A stretch of DNA of 64,000 nucleotides, from the NCBI RefSeq assembly GCF_000788395.1, contig NZ_CP009889.1:1054001-1118000 (forward strand), written 5' to 3'. Below, in pieces: positions 24,334 through 42,046 of the stretch (position 1 is the first letter of the stretch; each line of letters starts with the position of its first letter). The stretch comes from Pseudoalteromonas piratica (GTDB lineage: Bacteria; Pseudomonadota; Gammaproteobacteria; Enterobacterales; Alteromonadaceae). A program made the position numbers and the translations under genes. The notes beneath the pieces are model-generated. The model saw nothing but the letters and a program-made list of their open reading frames with translations. It was not told where the DNA came from and ran no database searches.

Positions 24334-24400
24334 AATTAAGTATTCCCTGATTTCTCATATCGATACTTAATTATAGTGAGCAAGCACGCGTTTAGATCAG

Positions 24401-24616: not shown

Positions 24617-24667
24617 TTTGTTGCCTTAATCGGGTTATTGCTCTATCTACAAAGATAAACAGCACAT

Positions 24668-24692: not shown

Positions 24693-24709
24693 CAAATTAT
24701 GTTAAACAT

Positions 24710-25138: not shown

Positions 25139-25150
25139 TTTTTCTCCCTA

Positions 25151-25951
25151 TTATTTAAATGAATAAAACTTCCATGCAAAACCTAACCCGAACGCGACAT
25201 TATCGTGTTCTCGCATCAGCGGGCTATGTTGATTTGCGCTATTTGAATAATTGTAATAACGAACGAATCCACCAGCCCATAGCCAGTTATTATCGTAAGT
25301 TAAGCCTACACTAAAAATTGAGGCAAGGTAGCCTGCTTTTGCATCATATTGTTGGCGTTCTAAGGTTTGAAACTGCTCAGCTACCTGATAAAAGTAATTG
25401 TTATAGGCATGAGAGCCAAAACGTGAACTGACTCTTGCAGTTAATTTTACATCATGCTTTTTTGTGCGATACAACTGTTTACCCGTTTCAACAATGACGC
25501 CGTAAACACTACCAATATCATCAAAATTGAAATTATCGACGGCATACGCTTTACGAATGAAGGGGGAAACATAAAAGTAATCATCAGAAAGCGGGTTACC
25601 ATAACTAAAATATTCATAACTTGGCCCTATTTCTCCTACCCAGCCAAGATCATCCATGCCCTCACGTGCACGATTTTCATTACTTGCTACCGCAATCGCC
25701 CCGCCAGCACTCAGGCTTAAATAGTGTTTCGGTGCAATTTTTAAAAAAGAAGCAAACTCATTGCGTTCAACCTTGTAATGGGGCTTTTTGATATGAATAT
25801 ACGGTAGCGGTACAAAGTAGTTTTCATTTTGCTGCGCACCTAAATAATGCGGAATCGAAGAATAAAAACCACCAATACCTAGAGTCACTTCATCTGCAAA
25901 ACTGATGGGTGACAGAAAGAAAAGAAGTAAGGCAATCCATTGCTTGAACAT
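25151..25951 (-). CDS. MipA/OmpV family outer-membrane protein
   Basis: A 266-residue protein with a signal peptide (about 1-19) followed by VTLGIGGFYSSIPHYLGAQQ, the usual MipA/OmpV start with its 'G..Y.G' loop. Alternating strands and a terminal GLGFAWKFYSFK strand indicate an outer-membrane barrel. MipA in E. coli scaffolds murein enzymes; most relatives have unknown ligands. The start lies 2 bases after the apeR stop, so it is translated from the aryl polyene transcript. A role in placing or tolerating the pigment lipid in the outer membrane is inference. Confidence 0.8.
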   Translation of the reverse strand: MFKQWIALLLFFLSPISFADEVTLGIGGFYSSIPHYLGAQQNENYFVPLPYIHIKKPHYKVERNEFASFLKIAPKHYLSLSAGGAIAVASNENRAREGMDDLGWVGEIGPSYEYFSYGNPLSDDYFYVSPFIRKAYAVDNFNFDDIGSVYGVIVETGKQLYRTKKHDVKLTARVSSRFGSHAYNNYFYQVAEQFQTLERQQYDAKAGYLASIFSVGLTYDNNWLWAGGFVRYYNYSNSANQHSPLMREHDNVAFGLGFAWKFYSFK

Positions 25952-25953
25952 TA

Positions 25954-27177
25954 TTAAGACCAGCGTTTAAAAATTAAAGAGGTATTAATACCACCAAAGG
26001 CAAAGTTATTACTCATAATATAATCAGTACTAATTTCACGGCCATTAACATCAAGGTAATCTAGTGGAGCACAGTCTGGATCAACACTGTCTAAGTTAGC
26101 AGTACCGCTAAACCAATTATCATACATCATATGAATACTGGCCCACGCTTCAATTGCGCCACAGGCACCTAACGTATGTCCAAGGTAACTTTTCAGTGAA
26201 CTAATAGGCACCTCACCTAATGCGTTAAATGTTGCATGCGACTCTGCTATATCACCTCGGTCAGTGGATGTGCCATGAGCATTTACATAACCAATTTTCG
26301 ATTTATCAATACCAGCTTCTGTGATTGCTTGTTCAATCGCCACTTGCATGGTTTCGCTGGTCGGTTGGGTTACATGTTGTCCATCTGAATTACAGCCAAA
26401 TCCGACTATCTCAGCAATAATATTGGCACCTCGCGCCTTAGCATGTTCCAATTCTTCTAAAATGAACGTGCACGCACCTTCCCCTATAACGAGTCCATCT
26501 CTGTCTTTGTCAAATGGACGCGGCGTTTGCTTTGGCGTATCGTTTTTACAGCTGGTTGCATACAAGGTATCAAACACCGCTGCTTCAGTGACACAAAGCT
26601 CTTCTGCACCACCCGCCACCATTAATTTTTGGCGGCCAAATTTAATTGCTTCGAATGCGTAGCCAATGCCTTGCGAGCCGGAAGTACAAGCTGAACTGGT
26701 GGTAATCACCCGGCCTTTTAAACCAAAAAACACACCGACGTTAACCGGGGCAGTATGCGCCATCATTTGGATATAACTCGTTGCTGTCACACCTGTCATT
26801 TCACCCGTTTCCATCATGCGACCAAACGGGATAAGCGGTGCCGTAGAACCAATAGATGAACCAAAAGCAATGCCCGTATCACCATTTGTAAGTGATGGGT
26901 GCTCTAATAAACCAGCTTGCTCTAGGGCAAGTTCAGTAGTGCGCGTTGCCATAAGCGAAACACGCCCCATTGAACGAATTTTCTTTCGTGAATAATGGTT
27001 TGGTTTTTCAAAGTGTTTAACTGGCGCCGCAAGGTTGGTATTTAAACCATTGATAAATTCCCAATCGGGCATTGTCTCAACTGCATTAACACCTGTTTTA
27101 AGCGCCGCTTTGAATGTTTGCCAATCATCACCTAGCGCAGTGATTGCCGACATACCGGTAACAACAACACGTTTCAC
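25954..27177 (-). CDS. apeR: Aryl polyene 3-ketoacyl-ACP synthase (ApeR-type)
   Basis: A 407-residue FabF-fold condensing enzyme with a complete triad: Cys164 (TTSSACTSGSQG), His301 (NAHGTSTDRGD) and His334 (KSYLGHTLGACG). In the aryl polyene pathway, a non-canonical type II polyketide system, a ketosynthase of this kind extends an aryl starter on ACP by malonyl units. It is the last of the colinear ape genes and overlaps apeQ by one base. Plain FabF is an alternative, but the context decides. Confidence 0.88.
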   Translation of the reverse strand: MKRVVVTGMSAITALGDDWQTFKAALKTGVNAVETMPDWEFINGLNTNLAAPVKHFEKPNHYSRKKIRSMGRVSLMATRTTELALEQAGLLEHPSLTNGDTGIAFGSSIGSTAPLIPFGRMMETGEMTGVTATSYIQMMAHTAPVNVGVFFGLKGRVITTSSACTSGSQGIGYAFEAIKFGRQKLMVAGGAEELCVTEAAVFDTLYATSCKNDTPKQTPRPFDKDRDGLVIGEGACTFILEELEHAKARGANIIAEIVGFGCNSDGQHVTQPTSETMQVAIEQAITEAGIDKSKIGYVNAHGTSTDRGDIAESHATFNALGEVPISSLKSYLGHTLGACGAIEAWASIHMMYDNWFSGTANLDSVDPDCAPLDYLDVNGREISTDYIMSNNFAFGGINTSLIFKRWS

Positions 27178-27902
27178 TAAACTAACCCACCATTAACTGA
27201 AATTACTTGGCGAGTAATGTATGCCGCATCATCTGACATTAAAAATGACACAGTACCTGCCACTTCCTTTGGCTCTGCCATACGGCGCATTGGCACCATT
27301 TTAAGAATTTCATCAACAGGTAAATCATCTACCATATCCGTTGCCACTAACCCTGGTGCTACACAATTTACAGTAATTTTGCGTTTAGCTAACTCTAGGG
27401 CAAGTGCTTTGGTAGCACCAATAAGGCCTGCTTTTGCTGCGCTATAGTTAACTTGTCCACGATTACCGGCAATACCAGATACTGACGCCATAGTGATGAT
27501 ACGCCCGCCTTTACGTGTTTGCACCATCGGCATTACTAACGGTTGCACCACATTGTAAAATCCATCTAAACCGGTCTCAATTACCTGATCCCATTCTTCG
27601 CCGGTCATCGCAGGGAACGCCGTATCTCGTGTCACGCCTGCGTTACATACAACGCCATAATAAGCACCATGTTGTTCAACATCGGCAAGCAAGCTACTTT
27701 TTGCTTTTTCACGATCACACACATCAAATTGACAAACCGTTACATGGCGACCAAGTGCCTCTATTTGTGCCTTTACTTCAAGTGCAGCATCTATCCCATT
27801 GCGACAATGCAATGTAATATCAAAGCCATCTTCGGCTAACCTTAATGCAATGGCTTTACCGATTCCACGACTTGAGCCAGTAACTAAAACACGTTTTGTC
27901 AT
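27177..27902 (-). CDS. apeQ: Aryl polyene 3-ketoacyl-ACP reductase (ApeQ-type, FabG family)
   Basis: A 241-residue short-chain dehydrogenase: TGSSRGIG cofactor loop (8-15), CNAGVTRD (86-93) and catalytic Ser140, Tyr153 and Lys157 (YSAAK). It reduces the beta-keto group after each condensation with NADPH. It overlaps the dehydratase gene upstream by 4 bases and apeR downstream by 1, so translation is coupled. Confidence 0.9.
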   Translation of the reverse strand: MTKRVLVTGSSRGIGKAIALRLAEDGFDITLHCRNGIDAALEVKAQIEALGRHVTVCQFDVCDREKAKSSLLADVEQHGAYYGVVCNAGVTRDTAFPAMTGEEWDQVIETGLDGFYNVVQPLVMPMVQTRKGGRIITMASVSGIAGNRGQVNYSAAKAGLIGATKALALELAKRKITVNCVAPGLVATDMVDDLPVDEILKMVPMRRMAEPKEVAGTVSFLMSDDAAYITRQVISVNGGLV

Positions 27903-28354
27903 TGTTGTTCCTTTAAAAACTGCACAGGGTCTTCTGGCTGAAAGACATTAATTTTTGCCTCAGCAAACACCGTTTCACCCTCAAAAATGCGACATTCAAA
28001 TACACTTAAGCCTGAGTCTTCTTGAAATAGCTTTTTTACCGATACTGATAAGATCTGGCCTAACTTAAATTCAGGTGAATACGTTTTATATTTGCGAGAA
28101 CCAATTAGAAAGCCAATTTTGACAGGCAAATTATCGTCCAGTGCCAGCGCACCTGCGTATGCTGCGATGGATTGTGCCATATATTCAGTGCCAATGTAAC
28201 TTGCAACTGTTTGAGTTTGCTCATTATAAAATGCAGATTCAGGCGTAATATCGACTTCACAAATAGCCGAATCTTGGTCATAACTTACCAAGCGCGATAA
28301 TAAGATCATTGGGTCGGTATGAGGTAATACCGCCTCAATCGAATACTGTGTCAT
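27899..28354 (-). CDS. apeP: Aryl polyene hotdog dehydratase (ApeP-type)
   Basis: A 151-residue single hotdog-fold protein. The LPHTDPMILLSRLVSYD opening gives the catalytic-type His12, and IGTEYMAQSIAAYAG supplies the Glu of the central helix. In the studied aryl polyene system ApeP pairs with ApeI to dehydrate 3-hydroxyacyl-ACP and install the conjugated double bonds. It lies between apeO and apeQ, overlapping the latter. Confidence 0.85.
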   Translation of the reverse strand: MTQYSIEAVLPHTDPMILLSRLVSYDQDSAICEVDITPESAFYNEQTQTVASYIGTEYMAQSIAAYAGALALDDNLPVKIGFLIGSRKYKTYSPEFKLGQILSVSVKKLFQEDSGLSVFECRIFEGETVFAEAKINVFQPEDPVQFLKEQQ

Positions 28355-28360
28355 GTTGTG

Positions 28361-29548
28361 CTATTTTCCAAAAATTAGCGATACGTTATTGCCACCAAAC
28401 GCAAACGAATTAGATAAACAGCGCGCTATTTTACCAGAAGTTTGCTTAGCTGTGAGTTTAATTGGTGCAAGTTTTTCATCTAATTCGGCAATCGGGTAAT
28501 TCTCAGGCACACTATGTTTGTGGTTTAACTCACTGAGTAATAACCAACAAATGGCAGCTTCAAGTGCGCCGGCAGCACCAAGCGTATGCCCAGTGATTCC
28601 TTTAGTGGAGCTCACTTCACAATCAAAGCCAAGTGTATGAATTGCTTTTGCTTCCATTTCATCATTCTTCACCGTACCTGTGCCATGTGCATTGATGTAA
28701 TCAATGTCCTTTGCCTCTAGGCCTGCATCACTAAGTGCCATTGACATACTTGCTATTGCACCACGACCTGTTGGCTCTGGCGCAGAGACATGATACGCAT
28801 CGGAGCTTTCACCTGCTCCTAGCAGCTTTACAGCTGAATGCCCTTTTATGCTTTCTTTTGTCATAACAAAAAGCGCTGCCGCTTCACCAATATTGATCCC
28901 ATCGCGGCTGGCATGAAATGGCTTGCAGTAATCAGCAGCTGTTGATTCAAGCGCCTTAAAACCATTCAGTGTCATTTCGCACAAACTATCTACACCACCA
29001 CACAAGACAATGTCAGCAATTCCACTCTCTATAAGGCCTTTCGCACTAACAAATGCCTTACCACTTGAGCTACACGCGGTAGAAATGGTATAACACGGTC
29101 CTTTCGCACCCGTTAAGTGCGCTAAGTATTCACTGGGGGCATGTAATTCTTGCTGACTGTATTCAAACTGCGCAGGGTATTGTCCTGTTTGTGAAAATGT
29201 TTTGTAAGCACGTTCACCTTCACTGATGGCGCTTGTACTCGTACCTAGGACAATGGCAATACGTTCATTGGCAATAGATTTAGCCAATTGCTGAAATGTC
29301 GATGCTATTTGTTGATAGGCTGATAACAATAATTGATTATTGCGTGTATTAAAGTATTTCTCTGAAATTTCTGGTAATTCAGCATTAACAGCACCTACAA
29401 AAAAAACTGTGCCATCATTCCCTGCTTTAGCAAATTGTGACATCACCTCTTGCTGTGACAGATGCTCATCACCTAATGCTGTCATCACACTCTGTTTACT
29501 ATTTCCTAGGCTACAGATCAGCCCTAAATCGTTTAATGCTACAGCCAT
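28361..29548 (-). CDS. apeO: Aryl polyene 3-ketoacyl-ACP synthase (ApeO-type)
   Basis: A 395-residue condensing enzyme with Cys159 (TISTACSSSGKAF), His288 (NAHGTGTVKND) and His321 (GITGHTLGAAGA). In Xenorhabdus the ApeO ketosynthase works with the ApeC chain-length factor, and here apeC is encoded at the other end of the same operon. It lies 2 bases after the DUF3261 lipoprotein gene. Confidence 0.88.
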   Translation of the reverse strand: MAVALNDLGLICSLGNSKQSVMTALGDEHLSQQEVMSQFAKAGNDGTVFFVGAVNAELPEISEKYFNTRNNQLLLSAYQQIASTFQQLAKSIANERIAIVLGTSTSAISEGERAYKTFSQTGQYPAQFEYSQQELHAPSEYLAHLTGAKGPCYTISTACSSSGKAFVSAKGLIESGIADIVLCGGVDSLCEMTLNGFKALESTAADYCKPFHASRDGINIGEAAALFVMTKESIKGHSAVKLLGAGESSDAYHVSAPEPTGRGAIASMSMALSDAGLEAKDIDYINAHGTGTVKNDEMEAKAIHTLGFDCEVSSTKGITGHTLGAAGALEAAICWLLLSELNHKHSVPENYPIAELDEKLAPIKLTAKQTSGKIARCLSNSFAFGGNNVSLIFGK

Positions 29549-29550
29549 GA

Positions 29551-30096
29551 TTAATTAATCTCTTCAATAGTAATTGTGTAGTGACGACGCAAATGTGTAA
29601 GGGTGGTTTTATTATCTGCAAATGAAATTACCATCAGATGGCCCTTTTCATCAGCGACAACGCGCCTAGTCTCTTCATCCCTTAAAACAGCTCCCTCTAA
29701 ACCGTTTTTAATGGATTTAATGGGCCAACTGGCAAGTTGCATATCGGCCAACATATGACTTGGGTATAGGTTTAAGCCTGGAATATGCTTCTCGAGGGTA
29801 TAACTGCCGTCTTTAAATAGCGACATCGAAAAAACACTCATGCCTTGCACTGTTAGCGCAGCAATATTTAACTGTTCACCCTGTAATTCACTTTGCAATA
29901 ATAAGGATTGCTGCTTATTTTCACGTGTTATGGTAATTAGCTGCAAGGGTGATTGAATTGGCCAATTACTCGGCACAGCTTGTAATTGGTAGCTTACAGA
30001 CTCATCGAGTAAAACACGCTGAGGTGAGTGTACACTGCTACAACCAACAACAAGGGCCATACAAATGGCCATTAAACTTATTGATACGCTTTGCAT
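29551..30096 (-). CDS. apeN: DUF3261 lipoprotein of the aryl polyene cluster (ApeN position)
   Basis: A 181-residue protein with lipobox LVVGC (Cys19). The rest is strand-rich (LQLITITRENKQQSLLLQSE, MSVFSMSLFKDGSYTLEK) and matches DUF3261, a LolB-like lipoprotein that sits in aryl polyene clusters next to the LolA-like protein and MMPL exporter. It probably receives or inserts the lipid pigment at the outer membrane. It overlaps the upstream flavoprotein gene by 19 bases. Confidence 0.8.
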   Translation of the reverse strand: MQSVSISLMAICMALVVGCSSVHSPQRVLLDESVSYQLQAVPSNWPIQSPLQLITITRENKQQSLLLQSELQGEQLNIAALTVQGMSVFSMSLFKDGSYTLEKHIPGLNLYPSHMLADMQLASWPIKSIKNGLEGAVLRDEETRRVVADEKGHLMVISFADNKTTLTHLRRHYTITIEEIN

Positions 30097-31325
30097 AACT
30101 TCGCTAACACGTCTAAACGGCGCTCACTTTGCGCAACATATGGGTTGCTAGTATCCCATGCATAGCCCGCTAAAATCGAGCTAACCATTTTTCTGATCTG
30201 TGCATCCTGATCTTTGTGGAAAATAACATCTTGAAAGCGGCCATCATACCAAGCAGTTACAAATGTTTTAAAACAATCAACTCCTTGCTTAAGTGGTTTT
30301 GCATAATCATTTTCAAGGTCAACGGTTTTGCCGTCTAATAAATCGTTAAGAACAGGCGCAATTAACGTAGCAGACCGAAGGGCAATCGTAACGCCACTTG
30401 AAAATACCGGATCTAAAAACTCGCCCGCATTACCCAAAAGTGCAAAACGTTCACCATGTAAGCGCGTAACATCAGCGGAATAACCTTTAATTTGTCTTAC
30501 CGGAGCAATGGTTTTAGCATTTTTAAGCAAACGTGACAGATTAGGAACTTGATTAATGTAATCAAATAAAATGGCCTCATGCTCTCGTTCAGGGCTTATT
30601 ACCTTATTTGGCTCAATGACCACTCCCACACTTGCGGTGCCATCAGAAAATGGGATCAACCAATACCATATATCTGAATAATCTGGATGTACGGTGATTA
30701 AAATCTTGTCGCGATCAAAGTGTTGATCGTCAATATTGTCTTCAACATGCGTAAAATAAGAGCTGCGTACAGGAAATTTTGACGGTTTTTCTAAATCGAG
30801 TAATCGCGGTAACACGCGCCCAAAACCGCTAGCATCTAAAACGAATTTTGCCTCAACAGTGTATGTTTCACCAGCCTCATCAACCACCACTAAACGCATA
30901 AAATCTGGATGTTCTGCTACTTCAATTACTGTATGTTGGTAGCGAATGGTAACGCCTTGTTCGGCTGCACCATCGGCAAGCAACTTATCAAAATCAGCAC
31001 GTTTTACCTGATATGTCGTACCTGGTCCGCTGGTAAATTTGTCGGTGAAGTCAAAGAAGGTATGCTCACCTGATTTTTCAAATGCAGCGCCATTTTTAAA
31101 TTGAAAACCAAGTGCATGGGCATTTTCATCTAAACGCTCAGCTAAACCTGCTTCGGCTAAATAAGCCATACACTGAGGCAATAAACTTTCCCCGATTGAG
31201 AAACGTGGAAACGTATCACGCTCAAGTACAACAACTTGTTTTCCTTGTTTATTTAAAAGACTACTTGCAAGGGCACCGGAAGGACCTGCGCCAATTACAA
31301 TTACGTCAACTTTTTCAACCTTCAT
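30078..31325 (-). CDS. FAD-dependent halogenase-like oxidoreductase
   Basis: A 415-residue flavoprotein: VDVIVIGAGPSGALASSLL (FAD-binding GxGxxG), FPRFSIGESLLPQ (40-51, wording of phenol/carrier-type halogenases such as CmlS and CndH), and Lys77 in GFQFKNGAAF, at the place of the CmlS active-site lysine. WYWLIP at 220-225 fits the WxWxIP signature of flavin-dependent halogenases. The GNAGEFLDPVFSSGV motif completes the fold. It may halogenate the aryl head of the polyene; bromine is plausible in a marine host, and xanthomonadin pathways use such an enzyme. Alternatives are a ring hydroxylase or a geranylgeranyl-reductase-like enzyme. It overlaps apeM by 4 bases. E. coli-type clusters lack this gene. 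Confidence 0.75.
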   Translation of the reverse strand: MKVEKVDVIVIGAGPSGALASSLLNKQGKQVVVLERDTFPRFSIGESLLPQCMAYLAEAGLAERLDENAHALGFQFKNGAAFEKSGEHTFFDFTDKFTSGPGTTYQVKRADFDKLLADGAAEQGVTIRYQHTVIEVAEHPDFMRLVVVDEAGETYTVEAKFVLDASGFGRVLPRLLDLEKPSKFPVRSSYFTHVEDNIDDQHFDRDKILITVHPDYSDIWYWLIPFSDGTASVGVVIEPNKVISPEREHEAILFDYINQVPNLSRLLKNAKTIAPVRQIKGYSADVTRLHGERFALLGNAGEFLDPVFSSGVTIALRSATLIAPVLNDLLDGKTVDLENDYAKPLKQGVDCFKTFVTAWYDGRFQDVIFHKDQDAQIRKMVSSILAGYAWDTSNPYVAQSERRLDVLAKLCKAYQ

Positions 31326-33583
31326 TTCCTTTCCTTGACAATACAGGGAGCTAAAACATACAGACTTATCAACCCTATCACTAAGGTTAAACCAAAACTA
31401 AATACGGCTGGTGTTTTACTAAATATTAAAATGCCAAACACCAAACATGATGAACACAATGATAAACTGATTGCTTGTAAGTTACTTTGACATAAGCCCT
31501 TACTGCGATAAAAAATCAAATAATCGATTGCGAGCGCTAGAATTAAAATTGTCGCAAGGTAATTAAATAAATTCACCGAAGTTTGTAGCCAACTTGAGAG
31601 TAATAAAGCACACACAGTGACCGTGCAAATAATCACACCGGTGAACAATGCGGTGGCCAAATCAAATCGTAATGCCATCACAATCATTGCAACTAACACA
31701 CTCAAAACCATCAGTCCCATTACTGTCGTTCGATAATGGCCTAATGCATCAGAAATTTCTTGGCGTTTATCTATTAAGTTTAAAAAACGTGAATGGGATG
31801 AGAGTAACTGTGCAAGCGTCTGTTCCGATAATAAATCTGTGCTAAACCATAATACGCTCGCATCATCAGTTTGCGTAATCTGATGCACTTGCAACAATGG
31901 CGAAAGCACTGAGCGCTCAAATGCACTGACAGTTAAAGGTGAATATTCGCGAAGGCCAACATTAATACCTAATGTGTCACTGACTTCTGTGTAATGCCCT
32001 GCTGTGACTTTATTCGTGAGTGTTTTATAAGTCGCCTGCTGTTGCGCTAGGGATGGCAGATAGTTAGCTAAGCTGTTTACTTGAATTGTTTCGTCCGTGT
32101 CTTTTAGCCAAGCAATGACGGCTTCTTGTTTTTCTAACGCATCTTGTATTGAGCTGCCAACTATTAAAAAGTGATGCTTATTACTTTGGCCAAATAATGT
32201 TAGATTTAGCGCTTCATTACGTTGTAGTTCGTCACTTGAACTACTTAATAATGCAACGTCATCTTGATGAGTAATCGGTTTGACAACAAAGCCAACGCTG
32301 AGAACGAATACCGCTGAGGCAAGTATTTGAAGCTTGAAACGATTAATGAAAACAAGGCTATTTTGCCAAATAATACGCGGTATTGTCACGTTTAACACAA
32401 GGTATTTTTGACAATACAGCGCAAAGATAAGTGCACCTAATAAGCCAAAAATCATAAACACAGCGACTTGTTGTAATAATACCATTGGCGCAAAACTATA
32501 AAGCGCATATCCTGCCGCGGTTGTCATGAAGCCAAGTATTAAACTACTGGTAATGGACTCTTTATCAGCGCAAAGCACATGAAATAAATAATCAATTGCT
32601 ACGCCTATTAAGGTGATCGAAAAAACCAAACCAATCAACTCAACACTCTCAAATGTGATGACAAGTGCCGTAATTCCCCACAAACAAGCATTAAAAATGG
32701 TGGCAAACATTAAGCCTATTACAGTTAAGTTGCGAAAAAATAAAACAACCAACAATGCCACTGAAACAAGACTGAATAAACCAAAGGTAGAGATTTCATG
32801 CTCAGCTTGCTCTGCATTTTCACTGCCATGAAACGCAAAGCCTGAATAATAGATTGGGCTGTTATATTCAGTTTCTATCTTTTCAATTTCACTTTTGATG
32901 CTTTGCGTTAGTTGGATACTTTGCGAAAAGTCCGCTGCATTTAGATTTTGCACAAAACGTACAAAATAAAACGATGATTGTTTGTCAGTCTCTAAGCTTT
33001 GTAAAAAGGGAGCTGGATTTAAAGTCGTTTTATATATGCCATCTTCTTGTTGCAATGCACCCGTTTTCGCAACACCGTTAAGAAAACTTGCTAGCGCTAA
33101 AGTAGGATCCTTCTCAAGAGAGTTTGCGCTTAATGTGCTATCAGGTTTGGTCAGCTCAGCCAAGGTATAATTTAAGAGTCCATTTGGTTGAGATAAGTGG
33201 CTCGGGTAGTTACTCGCCATCAAACTTCCCGGATAATTTGTATAAAAGTTTACAACATCACTCAATGCAATATCTGGTGGCGCAACATACGATAATAATG
33301 GATTGGCTTTTAGTACATTTGTAAGCGCCACAATGGCAGATTTATTGTCGCTACTAAAAACAAGCTGGTCTGAAGAACGTTGTTGTAGCGTGTTTTTTGC
33401 ATTTTGTAGAATCGGTGAATCAATTTCAGCACGGTTTGGCACTACCGCTAAAATATCACTGCTAAAATCAGTATAGCCTTGCGCTAGGCGCAAACCAGTA
33501 GTTACTAGACAAGCCACTGCAATTAACACAAATGCCAATGCATAGCTATAACGAAGTGTATTGTGATTAGCGTGTCGGACCAT
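31322..33583 (-). CDS. apeM: MMPL/RND-type exporter (ApeM-type)
   Basis: A 753-residue membrane protein with the MMPL layout: one N-terminal helix (about 12-30), a large periplasmic loop, about five helices near 270-400, a second periplasmic loop, and five helices from about 620 to 745. Sequences such as VALLVVLFFRNLTVIGLMFA and LIGVAIDYLFHVL resemble the membrane core with its Asp-containing helix IDYLF. In aryl polyene clusters the MMPL protein is thought to move the lipid-linked pigment from the inner membrane to the LolA-like carrier. It overlaps the LolA-like gene by 17 bases. Confidence 0.87.
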   Translation of the reverse strand: MVRHANHNTLRYSYALAFVLIAVACLVTTGLRLAQGYTDFSSDILAVVPNRAEIDSPILQNAKNTLQQRSSDQLVFSSDNKSAIVALTNVLKANPLLSYVAPPDIALSDVVNFYTNYPGSLMASNYPSHLSQPNGLLNYTLAELTKPDSTLSANSLEKDPTLALASFLNGVAKTGALQQEDGIYKTTLNPAPFLQSLETDKQSSFYFVRFVQNLNAADFSQSIQLTQSIKSEIEKIETEYNSPIYYSGFAFHGSENAEQAEHEISTFGLFSLVSVALLVVLFFRNLTVIGLMFATIFNACLWGITALVITFESVELIGLVFSITLIGVAIDYLFHVLCADKESITSSLILGFMTTAAGYALYSFAPMVLLQQVAVFMIFGLLGALIFALYCQKYLVLNVTIPRIIWQNSLVFINRFKLQILASAVFVLSVGFVVKPITHQDDVALLSSSSDELQRNEALNLTLFGQSNKHHFLIVGSSIQDALEKQEAVIAWLKDTDETIQVNSLANYLPSLAQQQATYKTLTNKVTAGHYTEVSDTLGINVGLREYSPLTVSAFERSVLSPLLQVHQITQTDDASVLWFSTDLLSEQTLAQLLSSHSRFLNLIDKRQEISDALGHYRTTVMGLMVLSVLVAMIVMALRFDLATALFTGVIICTVTVCALLLSSWLQTSVNLFNYLATILILALAIDYLIFYRSKGLCQSNLQAISLSLCSSCLVFGILIFSKTPAVFSFGLTLVIGLISLYVLAPCIVKERK

Positions 33584-34530: not shown

Positions 34531-36076
34531 ATAATTTCCACTTTTGCTGTTGGATCGCATCAACAGTGTCACGTAAGGTGCGCTCTAGCGGGCGATCTTC
34601 ATCAAGATTTGGAAAATAGCCTGTGATATCGTGATACATTTCCAATAAACCATGAGCCAAGCTATCGAGCGCTAGCTCATCACGTTCTTGACGAATGCGC
34701 AACGCTTGAATCGCTGCAAGCAGTGTACTCGCAAGTACTTGCTCTGTGAGTTGGATAACACGCAGTGCATCACGTGCTGCTATGGTACCCATACTGACTT
34801 TATCTTGATTATGACATTCTGTAGAGCGTGAAAATACACTCGCAGGCATGGTAAGTTTTAATGCTTCTGCAGTATAGGCTGATGCACCAATTTGCACGGC
34901 TTTAAATCCATGGTTGATATATTGACGCTGAGGATCACCGTTTGACAAATTACTGGGCAACCCATTGTTAAATTTACTATCAACTAGTGATGCAATTTGA
35001 CGGTCTGCTAAATCAGCCAAGTTGGCAACCGCCGTTTTAAGGGTATCCATCGCCATTGCGATATGCCCACCATAAAAATGCCCACCATGCAGAACATGCT
35101 CACCAATGCCATCGATTATGGGATTATCGTTAGCTGAATTAAGTTCATTTTCGATTAATTGTCTTAACCAAGGCAGTGTATCGGCCAACACACCAATAAT
35201 ATGCGGTGCACAACGGATTGAATATCGATCTTGTAAGCGGTCTGCATTACGCGGATGAGTGTGATAATTCAAATCATCACGGATCCATGCCGCAACTTGT
35301 TGCTGACCAGCATGGGGTTTTACTGAGAATAAAATATCGTCAAAATGATGAGAGTTACCCATCAAGCCTAAACTGCTCAGTGATGTTAAGCGCGTAGCAA
35401 GTTTCACAAGGTACTCTGCGCGACTAAACGCCAAACATGCAAGCGCAGTCATAACAGCTGTACCATTCATAATTGCAAGGCCCTCTTTAGGCCTTAACGT
35501 AAGCGGCGATAAGTTAAGTGATTTCATCACTTCACCACTATTTGCCACTTCCCCTTTAAAATACACATCACGTTCACCTACTAAGGCACCCGCAACGTAT
35601 GAAAGTGGGGTTAAATCGCCACTTGCTCCCACTGAGCCTTCTTGCGGAATGACAGGTACCACATCATGATTTAAATATTCTTTTAAGAGCGACAACATGT
35701 CCCAGCTAACACCTGAGTAACCTTGGGCAAGCGAGTTTAAGCGTGTTGCAAGAATTGCACGGCCTTGTTCTTTTGAGAAAACATCCCCTAAACCACATCC
35801 GTGAAAGCGCGTTAAGTGAAGTGGCAGTTCATTAACCAATGGCAGAGGTACTGCACGTGTTACTGAATCACCATAACCTGTAGTAACACCATAAATAACA
35901 CCATCTTCTGCAAGCAGCTTATCTAAAAAAGCAACACCTGCGTCAATGCGCTGAGTAAAGTCAGTATCATTCGACAGCGTCGCATCAGAATGTCCTTTTG
36001 CTATCGCAACAATATCCTCTATTGAAAGCGGTCCTTGGCCAAACACAAGTGACCTTTTTTGCTGTTGATTAATCAC
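34523..36076 (-). CDS. Aromatic amino acid ammonia-lyase (HAL/PAL/TAL family)
   Basis: A 517-residue MIO enzyme with a GTG start and a CGGAG site. The MIO tripeptide Ala151-Ser152-Gly153 lies in GSVGASGDLTPLSY, and the catalytic Tyr is Tyr62 (YGVTTGYG). The substrate-selectivity loop reads LTRFHGCGLG, with Phe91-His92 where bacterial tyrosine lyases have His-Leu, histidine lyases Ser-His and plant phenylalanine lyases Phe-Leu. No other histidine-degradation gene is nearby; the gene is embedded between aryl polyene genes. The likely role is to form cinnamate or p-coumarate as starter for apeH activation, but the preferred amino acid cannot be settled from sequence. Confidence 0.87.
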   Translation of the reverse strand: MINQQQKRSLVFGQGPLSIEDIVAIAKGHSDATLSNDTDFTQRIDAGVAFLDKLLAEDGVIYGVTTGYGDSVTRAVPLPLVNELPLHLTRFHGCGLGDVFSKEQGRAILATRLNSLAQGYSGVSWDMLSLLKEYLNHDVVPVIPQEGSVGASGDLTPLSYVAGALVGERDVYFKGEVANSGEVMKSLNLSPLTLRPKEGLAIMNGTAVMTALACLAFSRAEYLVKLATRLTSLSSLGLMGNSHHFDDILFSVKPHAGQQQVAAWIRDDLNYHTHPRNADRLQDRYSIRCAPHIIGVLADTLPWLRQLIENELNSANDNPIIDGIGEHVLHGGHFYGGHIAMAMDTLKTAVANLADLADRQIASLVDSKFNNGLPSNLSNGDPQRQYINHGFKAVQIGASAYTAEALKLTMPASVFSRSTECHNQDKVSMGTIAARDALRVIQLTEQVLASTLLAAIQALRIRQERDELALDSLAHGLLEMYHDITGYFPNLDEDRPLERTLRDTVDAIQQQKWKLYE

Positions 36077-36089
36077 TTCTTACTCCGAG

Positions 36090-37025
36090 TTAATCGCGAC
36101 TGACGTGGTGGTCGTCAGTCCAAAAATCATAAAAATTAAACCATTGGTAAGGGTACTGACAGGCAAAATACCCCAACCTATCAGAAAAATGTTGAATGGT
36201 TGTTTGGAGATCCTGCTGTCTGGTTTTGCGGTTAAATTTCAACTTATCTGAAACTTTTTCAAAGATTACCTGATAGCGATTTTCCGTTTTTAAACAAAAT
36301 AAATAATACACTGGGCACTCAAGCAAACTGGCTAAAATAAACGGTCCCTGTGAAAACGGTGCTGGTTTTCCTAAGAATTGACAATAGTTTACCCTGCCCG
36401 CAACCGACGAGCTAGTGCGATCGCCTACAATAACAATCACTTCCCCTTGTTCGATTTTTTGTTTTAACAAAATAGCCAAGGTAGGGCTCATATCACTAAC
36501 TTGGATTAAGTTAACTTGGGCATCAGCATTAATTTGTTGTAGCACTTTATTAAACTCAACCGCATGATGTGTAAATACCAAGACATTAATTGTGACGGCA
36601 TAGCGACCCTGGCTCAGGGCTCGGCACACTTCAAGGTTACCTAAATGGGAACCAATAAAAATGGCACCTTGTTTGTTTTGCTGCAATTTGGCAAATTCTT
36701 GCTGGTTTTGATATTCGATCGCATCAATGGGAATACGTCCAAGCCACGCATCAATTTTATCAAAAGCGGAGTCTGCAAATTTGCAAAAGTGCGCTAACCC
36801 CTGCCAAAACCCGGCACGAACTGGTTGTTGTTTGAACTTTTCAACTTGCTTTAGAAAGCGGATACTGGCATTACGTTGTGCTTTTCCCGTGCAATAGAAG
36901 TAAAAAACCACTGGAAACAACATCAGCCAGAGTACTCTGCGCCCTACTATTCGGTAAAATCCAAGCAACACACGCATACCAAGCAAGGTGCCGCGCTCTT
37001 GTATTGTTGACCAGTGTTTAGCCAC
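36090..37025 (-). CDS. LpxL-like acyltransferase (acyltransferase half of ApeJ)
   Basis: A 311-residue protein with a GTG start, an N-terminal membrane helix (about 30-48) and the acyltransferase motif SHLGNLEV (HX4E) near residue 123, followed by VIVGDRTS. This is the lysophospholipid/lipid A acyltransferase superfamily. In E. coli-type clusters acyl- and glycosyl-transferase are joined in one ApeJ-like protein; here they are separate, overlapping genes. It probably joins the polyene acyl chain to its lipid or sugar carrier. It overlaps the glycosyltransferase gene by 8 bases. Confidence 0.85.
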   Translation of the reverse strand: MAKHWSTIQERGTLLGMRVLLGFYRIVGRRVLWLMLFPVVFYFYCTGKAQRNASIRFLKQVEKFKQQPVRAGFWQGLAHFCKFADSAFDKIDAWLGRIPIDAIEYQNQQEFAKLQQNKQGAIFIGSHLGNLEVCRALSQGRYAVTINVLVFTHHAVEFNKVLQQINADAQVNLIQVSDMSPTLAILLKQKIEQGEVIVIVGDRTSSSVAGRVNYCQFLGKPAPFSQGPFILASLLECPVYYLFCLKTENRYQVIFEKVSDKLKFNRKTRQQDLQTTIQHFSDRLGYFACQYPYQWFNFYDFWTDDHHVSRD

Positions 37026-37752
37026 TGAACTTTCTCCACAGAAGTTTTGGTATGCGCGGCAACATGCCGAAGAATAAGCGCGTATGCATCCAACTGATCA
37101 ATACATTGTCTTCAAGGGCTCGAAAGTGCGAACTTCCCCCTTCAGGATAAATGACTTTGGTAGGCATAAATATACTTTTGACACCTCGCCAATACAGTCG
37201 CACCATAATTTCAATATCGAAATCCATGCGCTTACCCAAACGTTTTTCACGTAACAGTTTCGCAGTTATTGCCACCGGGTAGCAGCGAAAACCGCACATC
37301 GAATCTTTCACGCTGAACGAAAGTGTTTCTATCCAAACCCAAAAGTGCGTAATGTACCGACTGTATAAACGAACTTTAGGCACGGATTCATCGTATACAG
37401 GACGGCCGCTTATCAAACTATTAGGATGTGTTTTACCTAGCTTAATCAAGGTTTTGATATCATTTAAATCGTGTTGGCCATCCGCGTCTACTTGTATAGC
37501 ATGGGTAAAGCCGAGTTTATCGGCTGTAAGTAAACCTGTTTGTACCGCGCCGCCTTTACCTTGATTATGTTGATGCTCAATCAAGGTAAGAGATTCAAAT
37601 TTCGCCGCACAGTAACGCATTACTTCTGATGCCTCGCCGGAGGAACCATCATTTACCATAATAATTGGCAGCGATAGCGCACTCAACTCGGTTAAAACCG
37701 CTTCAATAACAGCTACATGGTTGTAGTTTGGAATAACAATACAGGCGCGCAT
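37018..37752 (-). CDS. Family 2 glycosyltransferase of the aryl polyene cluster
   Basis: A 244-residue GT-A enzyme: IPNYNHVAVIEAVL, IIMVNDGSSGEAS and VDADGQHD (the DXD metal site). KRMDFDIEIMVRLYWRG follows the usual dolichol-phosphate-mannose-synthase-like pattern. There are no convincing membrane helices. It likely transfers a sugar to the lipid anchor of the pigment; sugar and acceptor are unknown. It lies 5 bases after apeI and overlaps the acyltransferase gene. Confidence 0.85.
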   Translation of the reverse strand: MRACIVIPNYNHVAVIEAVLTELSALSLPIIMVNDGSSGEASEVMRYCAAKFESLTLIEHQHNQGKGGAVQTGLLTADKLGFTHAIQVDADGQHDLNDIKTLIKLGKTHPNSLISGRPVYDESVPKVRLYSRYITHFWVWIETLSFSVKDSMCGFRCYPVAITAKLLREKRLGKRMDFDIEIMVRLYWRGVKSIFMPTKVIYPEGGSSHFRALEDNVLISWMHTRLFFGMLPRIPKLLWRKFSG

Positions 37753-37757
37753 AACAA

Positions 37758-38114
37758 TTAACTTGGCAAGACAATACGGCCTGATGAATGCTGACCATGA
37801 TCTGAGTGGAAACTAAAGGTGAATTTGTTATCGGCTTTTTTCGTGAGCGTTAGTTCTATTAAAGAATTGGCTAAAATGACCACCTGAAATTTTAATACTT
37901 CTACATTTTCGACATGTTGGGAGCTTAATGAAAAATGCTGATGCGCAAACTTAACCGCCCAATCTAATTGCACTACTCCAGCTAAAATTGGCGCTTCAGG
38001 GAAATGGCCCTCAAAGTAATCAAGCGCACCATCAACCCACAAGGTCAATTTTACACTATTCTCTTGCTTGTCAATTGCTCTTACTTCAGGCAATGACTCT
38101 TTCAGCTTAGTCAA
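37758..38114 (-). CDS. apeI: Aryl polyene hotdog dehydratase (ApeI-type)
   Basis: A 118-residue FabA/FabZ-like protein. The catalytic motif EGHFPEAPILAGVVQLDWAV keeps His, with Asp (QLDW) where FabZ has Glu, as in FabA. No ATG is available: the TTG at 38114 has GGAG 7 bases upstream inside the end of apeH, whereas the frame can extend to a TTG at 38135 without such a site. In the studied system ApeI and ApeP form the dehydratase. It overlaps apeH by 8 bases. Confidence 0.83.
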   Translation of the reverse strand: MTKLKESLPEVRAIDKQENSVKLTLWVDGALDYFEGHFPEAPILAGVVQLDWAVKFAHQHFSLSSQHVENVEVLKFQVVILANSLIELTLTKKADNKFTFSFHSDHGQHSSGRIVLPS

Positions 38115-39429
38115 ACAACTTCTCCAATTCAGCAAAAACTAATTTGCCTTGACTGTTTACGGGTAAAGACGCTAAGTAGCGGAATTTCCTTGGCATACAT
38201 ATCGCTTCAAAACGACCCGACAACAGGCGTTTCAAATGTTTATTAAGTGCTAGTTTACCGTGTTTATTCAATTCACTAAAGCCATAGTCGGTTAATGACG
38301 CCACTAAACCTAATTGCTGACGTTTACCTTTAGTGAGCACAATTACTTTGCAAGCCTGGATGGTTTTATCGGCGCACAATGTGCGTTCTAATGCATCAAG
38401 ATTGACGCGTTTTTCTTCCAGCTTAATCGTTCGGTCTAGGCGCCCCAACAACATAAATTGACCATTTTCCAGCAGTTCAACCATGTCTTGGGTAATAAAC
38501 ACGTCCTCATCAAAATAAGGTGAACAAACAGCAAGTTGCTGTTCTTGTGTTGTCACTGTGATGCCATCAAAACACTGCCAAGCAGTCTTTGCCGATTGCG
38601 TTACCTGTCGATAAGCAATCCCACCGGTTTCGGTACTGCCGTAAATTTGTGTTGCAGCAATGCCTAATTGTTCAAAAAGTCTTATTGCACTGATATCAGA
38701 CAACGGGCCACCCGATGAAAACAAGCCAATAATCTTGTCTTTACATTCCATCAAGACATTGTCGCGAATCAGACGGTCAATAAACGCTGGGCTAGAAATG
38801 ATCACAGCGTTCTTTTCTAAAACAAGTGATTGTAATTGCTCCGGAAATTCGACAAACGTAAATTCAATTGTGTGACCAGAAAACAAGGGCCACAACAATT
38901 TAAACAACAAACCATAGATATGCTGATGCGAAACTGTTGCTACAATTTGGCATGGCTGTTCAAAGCAAAACGTGTGATCAAGGTTAGCTACTTCCGCATT
39001 GATATGGCGCCAGTTTTTTTCAATTGGTTTACCGTAACCTGTTGAGCCTGATGTATAAAATGTTAGCTTGCCTGACTGTGGTAATGTTAATGCGCTGATA
39101 CAATGATCGGCATCAAGGTTTGTATCAACAGCAGCTAACATCTCGGCATTAAGCTGCTTTGCCCCTTTATAACTATCAACAAAAACATAATCAGCATTGA
39201 GGCTTGCTGTTTCTATATTCTCAGTTTGTCCATTCGCAGGAAAAATAATATCAAATCCAGCATGAGCCGCAGCCAACAAGCGAATTAAGAATACCTCACT
39301 CGATGTATGGTAAAGCACTAAGGTTTTGCCACCAAAAGTCCTTTTATGCTGCTTAAGTGCAACACAAAGTGTCTTTACTCGAGATGATAGGAATTGCTGT
39401 TGTTCGGAAAGTGAATGAGTGCTTGGCAT
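38107..39429 (-). CDS. apeH: Acyl-activating AMP ligase (ApeH-type)
   Basis: A 440-residue ANL-family enzyme, shorter than a CoA ligase. P-loop LTFYTSGSTGYGKPI, then QIYGSTETGG and the LLGRLDRTIKLEEKRVNL hinge; the C-terminal lysine is probably in VNSQGKLVF. ApeH adenylates the aromatic acid and loads it onto ACP; with the ammonia-lyase in the operon the acid may be a cinnamate or coumarate. It lies 5 bases after apeG. Confidence 0.85.
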   Translation of the reverse strand: MPSTHSLSEQQQFLSSRVKTLCVALKQHKRTFGGKTLVLYHTSSEVFLIRLLAAAHAGFDIIFPANGQTENIETASLNADYVFVDSYKGAKQLNAEMLAAVDTNLDADHCISALTLPQSGKLTFYTSGSTGYGKPIEKNWRHINAEVANLDHTFCFEQPCQIVATVSHQHIYGLLFKLLWPLFSGHTIEFTFVEFPEQLQSLVLEKNAVIISSPAFIDRLIRDNVLMECKDKIIGLFSSGGPLSDISAIRLFEQLGIAATQIYGSTETGGIAYRQVTQSAKTAWQCFDGITVTTQEQQLAVCSPYFDEDVFITQDMVELLENGQFMLLGRLDRTIKLEEKRVNLDALERTLCADKTIQACKVIVLTKGKRQQLGLVASLTDYGFSELNKHGKLALNKHLKRLLSGRFEAICMPRKFRYLASLPVNSQGKLVFAELEKLFD

Positions 39430-39434
39430 AAAAA

Positions 39435-40034
39435 TTAAGACTGCAGTCCGTGGCGCTTTTTAGCAAAGTGACGAACAATTAATTCACCCGTCATAAGTAA
39501 CCCCATAAAAATATATGCGATTAGGCCGTTATAAAGTGTCCAAAGCGCTAAATCGTCGCTTAAAATAGTGTACATCGAAATAACGATGTTAATACTAAAA
39601 AAAGCACACCATACTTTTGTCACATTACGGGTGTAATTGACTACATGAAGGGGTAATGTCACCTGCTCATTGTCTTTTGCTTTACGTTTTTCTTCTAACA
39701 AAGCAAAACTTTCAATCACACTTGGCCCTTTAAAAAGTGAATAGGCAAAGGTCATCAGCATGGTTGTAGAAATTAATACAGGATAAAACAGAGTAATTTT
39801 GCTGTTATTCAAAAACCAAGCAAGTAACACACACCCAGTTCCAAGTATTGTTGCAGGCAATAACCACGGCATTGTCTTACTGGCCGACTTACTAAATAAG
39901 TAACGGCCAATAATTGCAACTAACAGCAAAGGCGCAATACTGGTCAAACTAAAATGCTGCAACCCAAAATAAATAAGTACTGGGTATGCTAGCAATAAGC
40001 CGATGAACAGAGTATTCAGTATTGCTTTTGTCAT
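39435..40034 (-). CDS. apeG: Aryl polyene cluster membrane protein (ApeG position)
   Basis: A 199-residue integral membrane protein with about six helices (for example ILNTLFIGLLLAYPVLIYFG and LYNGLIAYIFMGLLMTGEL). It matches the COG4648-type proteins that regularly lie between the ACP and AMP-ligase genes in aryl polyene clusters. The biochemical role is unknown; anchoring of the soluble assembly enzymes is one possibility. Confidence 0.78.
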   Translation of the reverse strand: MTKAILNTLFIGLLLAYPVLIYFGLQHFSLTSIAPLLLVAIIGRYLFSKSASKTMPWLLPATILGTGCVLLAWFLNNSKITLFYPVLISTTMLMTFAYSLFKGPSVIESFALLEEKRKAKDNEQVTLPLHVVNYTRNVTKVWCAFFSINIVISMYTILSDDLALWTLYNGLIAYIFMGLLMTGELIVRHFAKKRHGLQS

Positions 40035-40038
40035 GCTA

Positions 40039-40287
40039 CTATTCGGTAACGAGTTTGCTAACTTCGTTTACCACATCTTCTACTGTGCGTACTTGTTTAA
40101 ACGCTTCTGGATCGATTTTCTTACCCGTGATTTCGCGTAATTTTACTACTAAATCAACCGCATCAATGCTATCTAGATCAAGGTCTTGATATAGGTTTGC
40201 TTCTAAAGCAACATCATCCTGATCAATTTCAAATTCTTCCACCAAGATATCAGTTAAAACTGCGAAGATTTCTTGTTGTGTTTTCAT
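40039..40287 (-). CDS. apeF: Acyl carrier protein (ApeF-type)
   Basis: An 82-residue ACP with phosphopantetheine site Ser40 in DLDLDSIDAVDLVV. It is acidic and the normal length. It is one of two ACPs carrying starter and growing chain. No phosphopantetheinyl transferase is encoded in the window, so activation must be by an enzyme elsewhere. Confidence 0.9.
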   Translation of the reverse strand: MKTQQEIFAVLTDILVEEFEIDQDDVALEANLYQDLDLDSIDAVDLVVKLREITGKKIDPEAFKQVRTVEDVVNEVSKLVTE

Positions 40288-40300
40288 AACCTACCCGCTG

Positions 40301-40555
40301 TTATGCGTTTTGTTCAATAAAGGCAGCTAATGCATCAACTGACGCAAAATGCTGTTTTGTTTCTTCTGAGTTTGCATCGATTTTAATATCAAACTCTTTT
40401 TTAATCGCCAGACCCAGTTCTAGCGCATCAATGCTATCTAAACCTAACCCATCGATAAAAAGGGGTTCACTGTCTTCAATATCATCGATTGTAATGTCTT
40501 CTAAATCTAATGATTCAATAATGAGTTTTTTGATTCTTATTTTTAAATCACTCAT
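40301..40555 (-). CDS. apeE: Acyl carrier protein (ApeE-type)
   Basis: An 84-residue ACP with Ser41 in GLGLDSIDALELGLA. It overlaps the acyltransferase gene upstream by 8 bases and lies 13 bases before apeF. The two ACPs differ in sequence, in line with separate tasks for starter and elongation. Confidence 0.9.
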   Translation of the reverse strand: MSDLKIRIKKLIIESLDLEDITIDDIEDSEPLFIDGLGLDSIDALELGLAIKKEFDIKIDANSEETKQHFASVDALAAFIEQNA

Positions 40556-41321
40556 AAGTATCCAATTCTCCTTGAAAAAATGCCTGCATTTCGCGAGTAA
40601 AGCTACGCGCTTGTTGCGTCAACTTTGCCGTATCAACGACCGGAAGTTGCAGTTGTTGTCTGGTCATTGCTAGATCAAATTTCGCTTGTGTCGGCGCAAC
40701 TTCATACCACATTTCAGATTTTGTTAACGTTGAAGGTGATACATGAATTAATACTGACACAATCTCAGCGCGACATCGCAATGCAATGTTTGCAGCACCG
40801 CGTTTAAATTTGAGTGCTTGTCCCGGTGTTGTGCGTGTCCCCTCAGGGAATACGATTACGTTATTGCCACTGGCAAGTGACGCTGCGCAATCAGTTAATA
40901 ACCCATCAGGACAATCATTACTGATATAACCGGTGGATTTTATCACACCTCGCATAAATGGGTTACTAAATAAATGGGCTTTTACAACACAATCAGCGTT
41001 TGGAATAAGGGATATTAACACCACAACGTCAATTAAAGTTGGGTGGTTTGCCAGCACCAGTTTGCCATGTAAATTTGCAAATTGTTTTTTATCAGCAATG
41101 GTGAACTTAAATATGCCTAGCATGCCCATTAAGCCAACAAAAAATTTAAACAATAAATGTACGGTAAAGCGTGCTGCTTTCCTGCGTTTTTGTTTATCGC
41201 GATAAAGTAAAAATTGAATTGGCAAGACAAATAAGGGAACAAGCAAGCCGCCCAATCCAAATACCGAAAAGCAAAATCCTGTTGCTAATATACGCCAAAA
41301 CCGTCCTAGCTTTGTTAACAA
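40548..41321 (-). CDS. apeD: 1-acylglycerol-3-phosphate-type acyltransferase (ApeD-type)
   Basis: A 257-residue PlsC-family enzyme: an N-terminal hydrophobic segment (about 10-32), NHPTLIDVVVL (HX4D), and VFPEGTRTTPG (substrate glycerol-phosphate motif). It begins with TTG (41319-41321), with GGAG 7 bases upstream inside the end of apeC; the 7-base overlap couples the two. It probably acylates the lipid anchor with a fatty or polyene chain. Confidence 0.85.
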   Translation of the reverse strand: MLTKLGRFWRILATGFCFSVFGLGGLLVPLFVLPIQFLLYRDKQKRRKAARFTVHLLFKFFVGLMGMLGIFKFTIADKKQFANLHGKLVLANHPTLIDVVVLISLIPNADCVVKAHLFSNPFMRGVIKSTGYISNDCPDGLLTDCAASLASGNNVIVFPEGTRTTPGQALKFKRGAANIALRCRAEIVSVLIHVSPSTLTKSEMWYEVAPTQAKFDLAMTRQQLQLPVVDTAKLTQQARSFTREMQAFFQGELDTYE

Positions 41322-42046
41322 TGTTTAACTCCGTCTATTGTTATTTGCCAACTAGTTTGCGCGCCAAGTACTACACTATCACCGGCGTCTTTGGTCGCAA
41401 GGAACTCAACAAATTGTTTTGCTTGTAGCGGTGTTTTATTACTATCCGATGAGCATGATAAATTCAGAGAAATCCCCGTTTCAGCATTTTTAGACACAAT
41501 AAAAGCACACGCCAGATCAACACTGTCTTGATGATCAAATTGGGCATATTCTTTAGTAAGTGGTTGATCGCAATATACAACCAGCACCTGCTCTGTGTCG
41601 GCCTTATTGAGTTGCACATACGCTTCAATCAAGGCCATTAACAAGGTATTTTCACCCGCCGCAATGCTGTTCATCGGTTGTTGATTTTTAGTAAGAATCG
41701 AATAGAGACCCACCACGGCATTATGAACCGACAAGCCAAAAGACGTTGGACTAACCACTTCTCCTTCAGCCAAATCTTTTAAAATACTGGAAGTACGATG
41801 AAAGTCGCCATGTTGAGAAGCATAGACAACTGGCAGAGATTTTCCGTCATATGCCTTTGCACTATTAGCAGCAACAAATAATGCCATTTTTGCATAATGG
41901 CTTAAACGGCGGCGCTGCATGGCAGGCACCCAGTCTAACTGTGGACTTTTGCTAGCAGAGTCTAACATTTCAATTTTAGAATCGGTTAGCTGTGCATCAT
42001 CCTTAGCTTTACACCAATAATTGAAATGAGAGAGCACCATTTTCAT
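41315..42046 (-). CDS. apeC: Ketosynthase-like chain-length factor (ApeC-type)
   Basis: A 243-residue truncated ketosynthase fold (PF13723-like). ASQHGDFHRTSSILKDL and SPTSFGLSVHNAVVGLYSI mark the dimer face. The nucleophile Cys is replaced (NSIAAGENTLLMAL), so it cannot condense on its own. In the Xenorhabdus system ApeC partners ApeO as chain-length factor. It is the first gene of the operon; the ATG at 42046 and another at 42040 are both possible. Confidence 0.83.
   Translation of the reverse strand: MKMVLSHFNYWCKAKDDAQLTDSKIEMLDSASKSPQLDWVPAMQRRRLSHYAKMALFVAANSAKAYDGKSLPVVYASQHGDFHRTSSILKDLAEGEVVSPTSFGLSVHNAVVGLYSILTKNQQPMNSIAAGENTLLMALIEAYVQLNKADTEQVLVVYCDQPLTKEYAQFDHQDSVDLACAFIVSKNAETGISLNLSCSSDSNKTPLQAKQFVEFLATKDAGDSVVLGAQTSWQITIDGVKHC

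Follow-up and report, generated by a model that had tools for sequence, protein, structure and literature searches.

What would the closely packed genes at positions 25151 to 42046 of this stretch of the Pseudoalteromonas piratica genome make? The stretch, 64,000 nucleotides of contig NZ_CP009889.1 and referred to here as the window, had been read from its letters as carrying a complete aryl polyene (APE) operon of nineteen genes, with two extra tailoring enzymes and a cinnamate-started, possibly halogenated product lying between the aryl polyenes and the xanthomonadins and flexirubins (the original prediction). The joint best explanation of the evidence, which we consider probable with its proposed pathway included, is an intact APE lipid operon of the marine gammaproteobacterial type. 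A 4-coumarate start and halogenation of the ring are the best predictions that its sequence allows. What is new here is another member of a known cluster type; as a single locus it is ordinary.

The region contains 20 open reading frames (ORFs), all on the minus strand, running from 42046 to 25151 with overlaps of at most 50 bases and gaps of at most 13. The reference was the annotated APE cluster of Escherichia coli CFT073 (APEEc), with ape names given by order from PMC8253772; papers are cited here by accession and from extracts of their text. All 16 CFT073 proteins from ApeC to ApeR have counterparts in the window by blastp, in the same order, and this order is far beyond chance, as named relatives in many genera share it. 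The two clusters differ at a few points. The 558-residue ApeJ of CFT073, a glycosyltransferase of family 2 (GT2) joined to an acyltransferase, is split into two genes in the window, which also has an added lyase, a predicted halogenase and a MipA-like protein inside 25151-42046 and a gene for a 142-residue protein beyond it. Neither apeA nor apeB was matched by any of the 20 ORF products in blastp at E 0.01, and tblastn against the window at E 0.1 gave nothing for either, although that search, which missed apeL too, is less than fully sensitive. The predicted starter of APEEc is 4-hydroxybenzoate (PMC8253772). The original prediction was right about the packed run, its coordinates, the gene order and the positions of the lyase and the halogenase-like flavoprotein; it undercounted the genes and the additions relative to E. 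coli (two instead of three, the MipA-like gene at 25151-25951 being overlooked) and probably placed the end of the operon too early. From the start of the operon, the genes are as follows.

41315..42046, minus strand: ApeC-like ketosynthase chain-length factor (Pfam Ketoacyl-synt_2, 195 bits; 33% identity to E. coli ApeC)
40548..41321, minus strand: ApeD-like lysophospholipid acyltransferase (Pfam Acyltransferase; 41% to ApeD)
40301..40555, minus strand: ApeE-like acyl carrier protein with DSID motif (Pfam PP-binding; 61% to ApeE)
40039..40287, minus strand: ApeF-like acyl carrier protein with DSID motif (Pfam PP-binding; 56% to ApeF)
39435..40034, minus strand: ApeG-like membrane protein (no Pfam match; 35% to ApeG)
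38107..39429, minus strand: ApeH-like AMP-dependent acyl ligase, predicted to load the starter (Pfam AMP-binding; 30% to ApeH)
37758..38135, minus strand: ApeI-like dehydratase (Pfam ApeI-like; 29% to ApeI)
37018..37752, minus strand: GT2 half of ApeJ (Pfam Glycos_transf_2; 57% to ApeJ residues 8-242)
36090..37025, minus strand: LpxL-type acyltransferase half of ApeJ (Pfam Lip_A_acyltrans; 38% to ApeJ residues 247-549)
34523..36076, minus strand: extra gene 1, aromatic amino acid ammonia-lyase, predicted to turn tyrosine into 4-coumarate (Pfam Lyase_aromatic, 546 bits; methylidene-imidazolone (MIO) motif ASG; FH/Gln signature)
34099..34572, minus strand: ApeK-like thioesterase (Pfam 4HBT_2; 51% to ApeK)
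33567..34106, minus strand: ApeL-like LolA-type periplasmic carrier (NCBIfam LolA2_flexi, 27 bits, below the cut-off of 125; 27% to ApeL)
31322..33583, minus strand: ApeM-like MMPL/RND exporter (NCBIfam HpnN, 20.7 bits, below cut-off; 23% to ApeM over the full length)
30078..31325, minus strand: extra gene 2, predicted AltN-type flavin-dependent halogenase (Pfam Trp_halogenase, 80 bits; Lys77; WYWLIP at 220-225; 39% to an AltN-like protein)
29551..30096, minus strand: ApeN-like lipoprotein, DUF3261 (Pfam DUF3261, 112 bits; 30% to ApeN)
28361..29548, minus strand: ApeO-like ketosynthase, Cys-His-His (41% to ApeO)
27899..28354, minus strand: ApeP-like dehydratase (Pfam ApeP-like, 86 bits; 33% to ApeP)
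27177..27902, minus strand: ApeQ-like ketoreductase (58% to ApeQ; NCBIfam FabG2 above cut-off)
25954..27177, minus strand: ApeR-like ketosynthase, Cys-His-His (61% to ApeR; NCBIfam NF006587 above cut-off)
25151..25951, minus strand: extra gene 3, MipA-like outer-membrane protein (Pfam MipA, 88 bits; matched in 12 of 80 named loci)
24710..25138, minus strand: small signal-peptide-like protein of 142 residues, probable 21st operon gene (no Pfam match; position beyond apeR in relatives)

The genes, their order, the intact catalytic motifs and the recurrence of the set in relatives are direct observations. Diagnostic Pfam matches include ApeP-like, ApeI-like, Ketoacyl-synt_2, two acyl carrier proteins, two full ketosynthases, DUF3261, MipA, the aromatic lyase and Trp_halogenase. 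The core synthesis set (ApeO ketosynthase, ApeC chain-length factor, ApeR ketosynthase, ApeQ ketoreductase, the ApeI and ApeP dehydratases, two acyl carrier proteins and the AMP ligase) is present and in CFT073 order, which bears out the assignment as an APE operon. In the translations, Cys-His-His is apparent in both the ApeO and ApeR ketosynthases and the DSID serine in both carrier proteins; the ApeC-like protein has no active-site cysteine, as expected for a chain-length factor. The genes for lipid attachment and envelope transport (D, J, G, K, L, M and N) are also present, L, M and N being weak matches that stand in the right position.

In the proposed pathway, the lyase would convert L-tyrosine to 4-coumarate, which ApeH would load onto ApeE or ApeF. 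The chain would be extended with malonyl units by ApeO-ApeC and by ApeR, and reduction by ApeQ with dehydration by ApeI and ApeP would give a 4-hydroxyphenyl polyene acid, to whose ring the AltN-type halogenase may add bromine (or chlorine). ApeK, ApeD and the split ApeJ would release the polyene and join it to a lipid, and ApeM, ApeL, ApeN and ApeG, probably with the MipA-like and 142-residue proteins, would carry the product to the outer membrane. There it could serve as an antioxidant or photoprotective yellow pigment.

Both the lyase and the flavoprotein appear from sequence to have genetically tested counterparts in the genus, AltA and AltN of the alterochromide (alt) clusters, the two being named here by gene order. 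According to a review, AltA makes coumaric acid from tyrosine, an altA mutant is rescued by coumarate, and deletion of altN abolishes the bromination of alterochromides (PMC5577590). Among 108 genomes of the genus, a second class of lyase, with 42-43% identity, occurs in 20, and a second class of flavoprotein, with 39-42% identity, in 10, all among those 20; the two lie about 31 kb apart on one contig in 6 genomes and on different contigs in 4. One such cluster was scanned at 10 of its 14 ORFs (genome G347). It contains a halogenase, two non-ribosomal peptide synthetase (NRPS) proteins, a thioesterase, a ketoreductase, a FabA-like dehydratase, a ketosynthase, an AMP ligase, a lyase and, in the acyl carrier protein position, an ORF without a Pfam match, and its ORFs follow one another as in the published altN-altA table (PMC7333567). 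The alt clusters share with the window the genus, a homologous lyase (~42%) and halogenase (~39%) and type II polyene synthesis; they differ in having added NRPS genes and a lipopeptide product, where the window has genes for lipid attachment and envelope transport.

The two enzymes had been singled out by the original prediction as extras, but both are common in marine gammaproteobacterial APE clusters. In the same 108 genomes, the cluster-type lyase is found in 42, in one of them interrupted by a stop (G334), and the flavoprotein (at least 55% identity) in 40, each time a few kb from the lyase on the same contig. The two lyase-bearing genomes without it are G301 and G308, with the shorter clusters L140 and L139. 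A search of genome contigs with the lyase gave at least 593 relatives, of which 80 named loci were kept, so that this set is selected by the lyase. It contains a match to apeC in 77 loci, to apeR in 75 and to the flavoprotein in 64, on the operon strand in 40 and divergent in 24 (mostly Vibrionaceae). We also used a class-wide sample of 276 genomes selected independently of the lyase, in which ApeP scored over cut-off in 29, the window's genome included. With adjacency read from coordinates and the lyase required to lie within 10 kb at 52% identity or better, 11 of these 29 carry it; a flavoprotein of at least 43% identity lies within 5 kb in 14, and both genes are present in 7. The flavoprotein can be rejected as a marker of lyase-bearing clusters only, since 7 of the 14 flavoprotein loci have no lyase within 10 kb; one of these seven, G219, does have a cluster-type lyase, but about 56 kb off. 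The window's genome (4.8 Mb in 2 contigs) showed only the one strong copy of the flavoprotein.

The APE clusters of the marine Vibrio, Shewanella and Pseudoalteromonas type share with the window the core and the lyase, and mostly the flavoprotein. In loci from Vibrio, Photobacterium and Aliivibrio, any flavoprotein that was matched runs divergently upstream of apeC, whereas in the window it lies inside the operon. The marine-type clusters are probably kin of APEVf from Vibrio fischeri ES114, whose product is not known to carry a halogen. APEVf has been expressed heterologously (PMC8253772), and APE clusters of Pseudoalteromonas have already been published (PMC9966250). A few loci stand apart. 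L139 and L140 begin at a contig start and have apeC, an acyl carrier protein, a ligase, two dehydratases, a thioesterase and apeO, with no match to the MMPL, GT2, apeR or flavoprotein genes. At L128 (G334:C152, about 8.7-10.3 kb) the cluster lyase is cut by an in-frame stop and apeR is in two pieces, a decaying or mis-sequenced copy. L047 (Idiomarina aquatica) and L059 (Photobacterium chitinilyticum) have 65%-identical lyases with hardly any APE genes matched nearby, possibly reflecting other products or locations.

Is the flavoprotein a halogenase? It retains GxGxxG (as GAGPSG or GAGPAG), a lysine and W-x-W-x-I-P in 65 of 65 rows, which we take to be the motifs of flavin-dependent halogenases; the lysine and WxWxIP also occur in all five AltN-like rows fetched. 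The protein scores 308 bits against an AltN-like protein, 333 against 3nix and at most 153 against named halogenases of the PDB. A literature search found no link between 3NIX and a halogenase. The evidence tilts towards halogenation because of Lys77, the WxWxIP motif and the kinship with AltN. Alternatively, the same APE operon may include a flavoprotein that is no working halogenase, the ring or chain being hydroxylated or otherwise oxidised and the lipid halogen-free, which we regard as somewhat unlikely. Several observations favour this alternative or otherwise weigh against our interpretation. The closest solved relative, 3nix, is named 'Flavoprotein/dehydrogenase'. The best NCBIfam models are all below cut-off (CmlS halogenase, 163 bits; geranylgeranyl reductase family, 127 bits; QhpG monooxygenase, 105 bits), and 39% identity to the AltN-like protein leaves room for another reaction, such as hydroxylation. 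The AltA-like and AltN-like proteins were assigned by gene order and not from a named record, and half of the 20 genomes that carry an AltA-class lyase (10) lack any match of the AltN class. In the named set, 16 of the 80 loci lack a flavoprotein match, although a few of these are truncated at contig ends, and the pigment can probably be made without the protein. Its presence in lyase-less APE clusters, half of the class-wide flavoprotein loci, means that its substrate need not have a coumarate-derived head. A halogen-free lipid is harder to reconcile with the invariant lysine and WxWxIP, and with an AltN-like protein in the same subfamily, altN being required for bromination (PMC5577590). Halogenation, which the original prediction had raised, holds as a prediction, not as a product known from the genes alone.

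The flavoprotein tree comprises 86 rows, among them one outgroup row that is very long, and was rooted at the midpoint. The five AltN-like rows group together (support 100/99), as do the 24 divergent rows (100/98). The split of the 80 APE rows from AltN has support of only 94/85, and the join of L098 and L115 was flagged as possible long-branch attraction; together with the midpoint root, these points leave the exact branching unsure. The six flavoproteins that come from clusters without a lyase do not group together on the tree (6 changes; 500 of 500 shuffles were as low), which suggests, few as these rows are, that the flavoprotein is independent of the lyase.

Besides the 80 named loci, the lyase alignment of 83 rows includes the window, its own copy L001 and L002, a second lyase of the same genome. 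Among the matches listed, the closest named relative is from Pseudoalteromonas sp. P1-9 (94%). The MIO motif is kept in all rows; motif 1 is FH in 81 rows, YH in one and TH in L002, and motif 2 is Gln in 82 rows and Glu in L002 only. The window's enzyme, a MIO lyase with Gln and not the Glu typical of histidine ammonia-lyases (HAL), is thus of the tyrosine or phenylalanine ammonia-lyase (TAL/PAL) type. L002 adjoins a urocanate-hydratase-like ORF, as read from the translation, and looks like HutH. A role of the cluster lyase as HutH in histidine catabolism was rejected, given Gln in place of Glu and the separate HutH-like gene in the genome.

By these signatures, the substrate of the lyase is quite likely tyrosine, and 4-coumarate is favoured over cinnamate because of the FH/Gln signature and the AltA-like relatives in the genus. 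The cinnamate start of the original prediction, with the lyase acting on phenylalanine, therefore seems improbable. It draws on the Phe at selectivity position 1 of the window's lyase, which speaks against tyrosine: some PALs have Phe there and TALs have His (PMC3992019). At selectivity position 2, however, the enzyme has His, as in the AltA-like rows, which have YH and Gln in 7 of 7 fetched, and AltA uses tyrosine (PMC5577590). FlxA of Chitinophaga combines a HAL-like motif 1 with a TAL/PAL-like motif 2 and has kcat/KM values of 7728 for tyrosine and 7.7 for phenylalanine, a preference of about 1000-fold (PMC3992019). In general chemical terms, a phenyl head would also be a poorer substrate for halogenation.

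The gene-content comparison with other pigment clusters that the original prediction proposed gave a match to APE clusters, no StlD/DarB-type gene over cut-off and no sign of a xanthomonadin-type chorismatase, and it lends no support to the intermediate product type. The flexirubin clusters of Chitinophaga and Flavobacterium share with the window an ammonia-lyase start and an acyl-CoA ligase (PMC3992019), whereas the FlxA, FlxB and LolA2 models match the window weakly, all below cut-off. The StlD/DarB model gave four matches in the window's whole genome, all sub-threshold (30 bits at best, where the cut-off is 450) and one of them apeR itself, darA not having been searched; the same model matches in 9 of 14 control genomes, above cut-off in one. 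The FkbO/Hyg5-type chorismatase model (TIGR04444) had no match, with no positive control that it catches XanB2. A flexirubin-like dialkylresorcinol ester or a true xanthomonadin is thus a very remote prospect on these StlD/DarB and chorismatase results, even though some Pseudoalteromonas strains carry a hybrid APE-resorcinol cluster (PMC9966250) and arcuflavin clusters include genes for a halogenase and MltA-interacting protein (PMC3949708). Two further aryl polyene clusters, L110 and L111, which we label xanthomonadin-like, have a halogenase directly beside the chain-length factor gene, and a figure legend places a halogenase beside the chain-length factor and ketosynthase genes in several selected genomes (PMC3691225). 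They share with the window the aryl polyene genes and a halogenase by this gene pair, but their halogenase is of another subfamily, and orthology was rejected (23-24% identity to the window's flavoprotein, against 39% for the AltN-like protein).

Because the flavoprotein occurs in 64 of the 80 named lyase loci and 14 of the 29 ApeP-positive genomes, an AltN-type halogenase may be a regular component of marine gammaproteobacterial APE clusters, and a large class of brominated or chlorinated APE lipids, as yet unseen by chemistry and built on 4-coumarate or a different 4-hydroxyaryl starter, could be common in the sea; we propose this tentatively. In the literature covered, which was partial and is no proof of absence, there was no AltN-type halogenase in marine APE clusters and no halogenated lipid from them. 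If marine aryl polyenes are routinely halogenated, the halogen of a common class of marine pigments has so far been missed, and the gene would supply a subfamily of ring halogenases with a likely substrate type.

The operon probably extends beyond 25151, to 24710, with the 142-residue protein as its 21st member. Its ORF (24710-25138) starts 12 bases beyond the MipA-like gene, and relatives occur in 26 other fetched loci (the window's own stretch, L086, left out): in 23 on the apeR strand, 29-867 bases beyond apeR, in two elsewhere or on the opposite strand, and in one with no apeR match. The gene is far from universal, as 103 fetched loci have an apeR match and in 54 of them the sequence continues for over 1.8 kb past it. 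Databases hold 648 relatives, often labelled 'excinuclease ABC subunit A', which reads like a propagated misnomer because 142 residues and a signal-peptide-like start do not fit an excinuclease subunit. The gene was also considered as apeA and rejected: CFT073 apeA gave no match by blastp or phmmer, and no profile score was convincing.

Around the start of the operon (41900-42500), scans detected neither a promoter-like nor a terminator-like site. Beyond its end (24300-25300) there was no terminator-like site, and five promoter-like sites against 2.7 expected (sd 1.9) are no clear signal. An acetyl-CoA-synthetase-like gene (42427-44304; ACAS_N and AMP-binding) diverges from the operon start, and elsewhere in the window a plus-strand ORF at 2833-9858 encodes 2341 residues.

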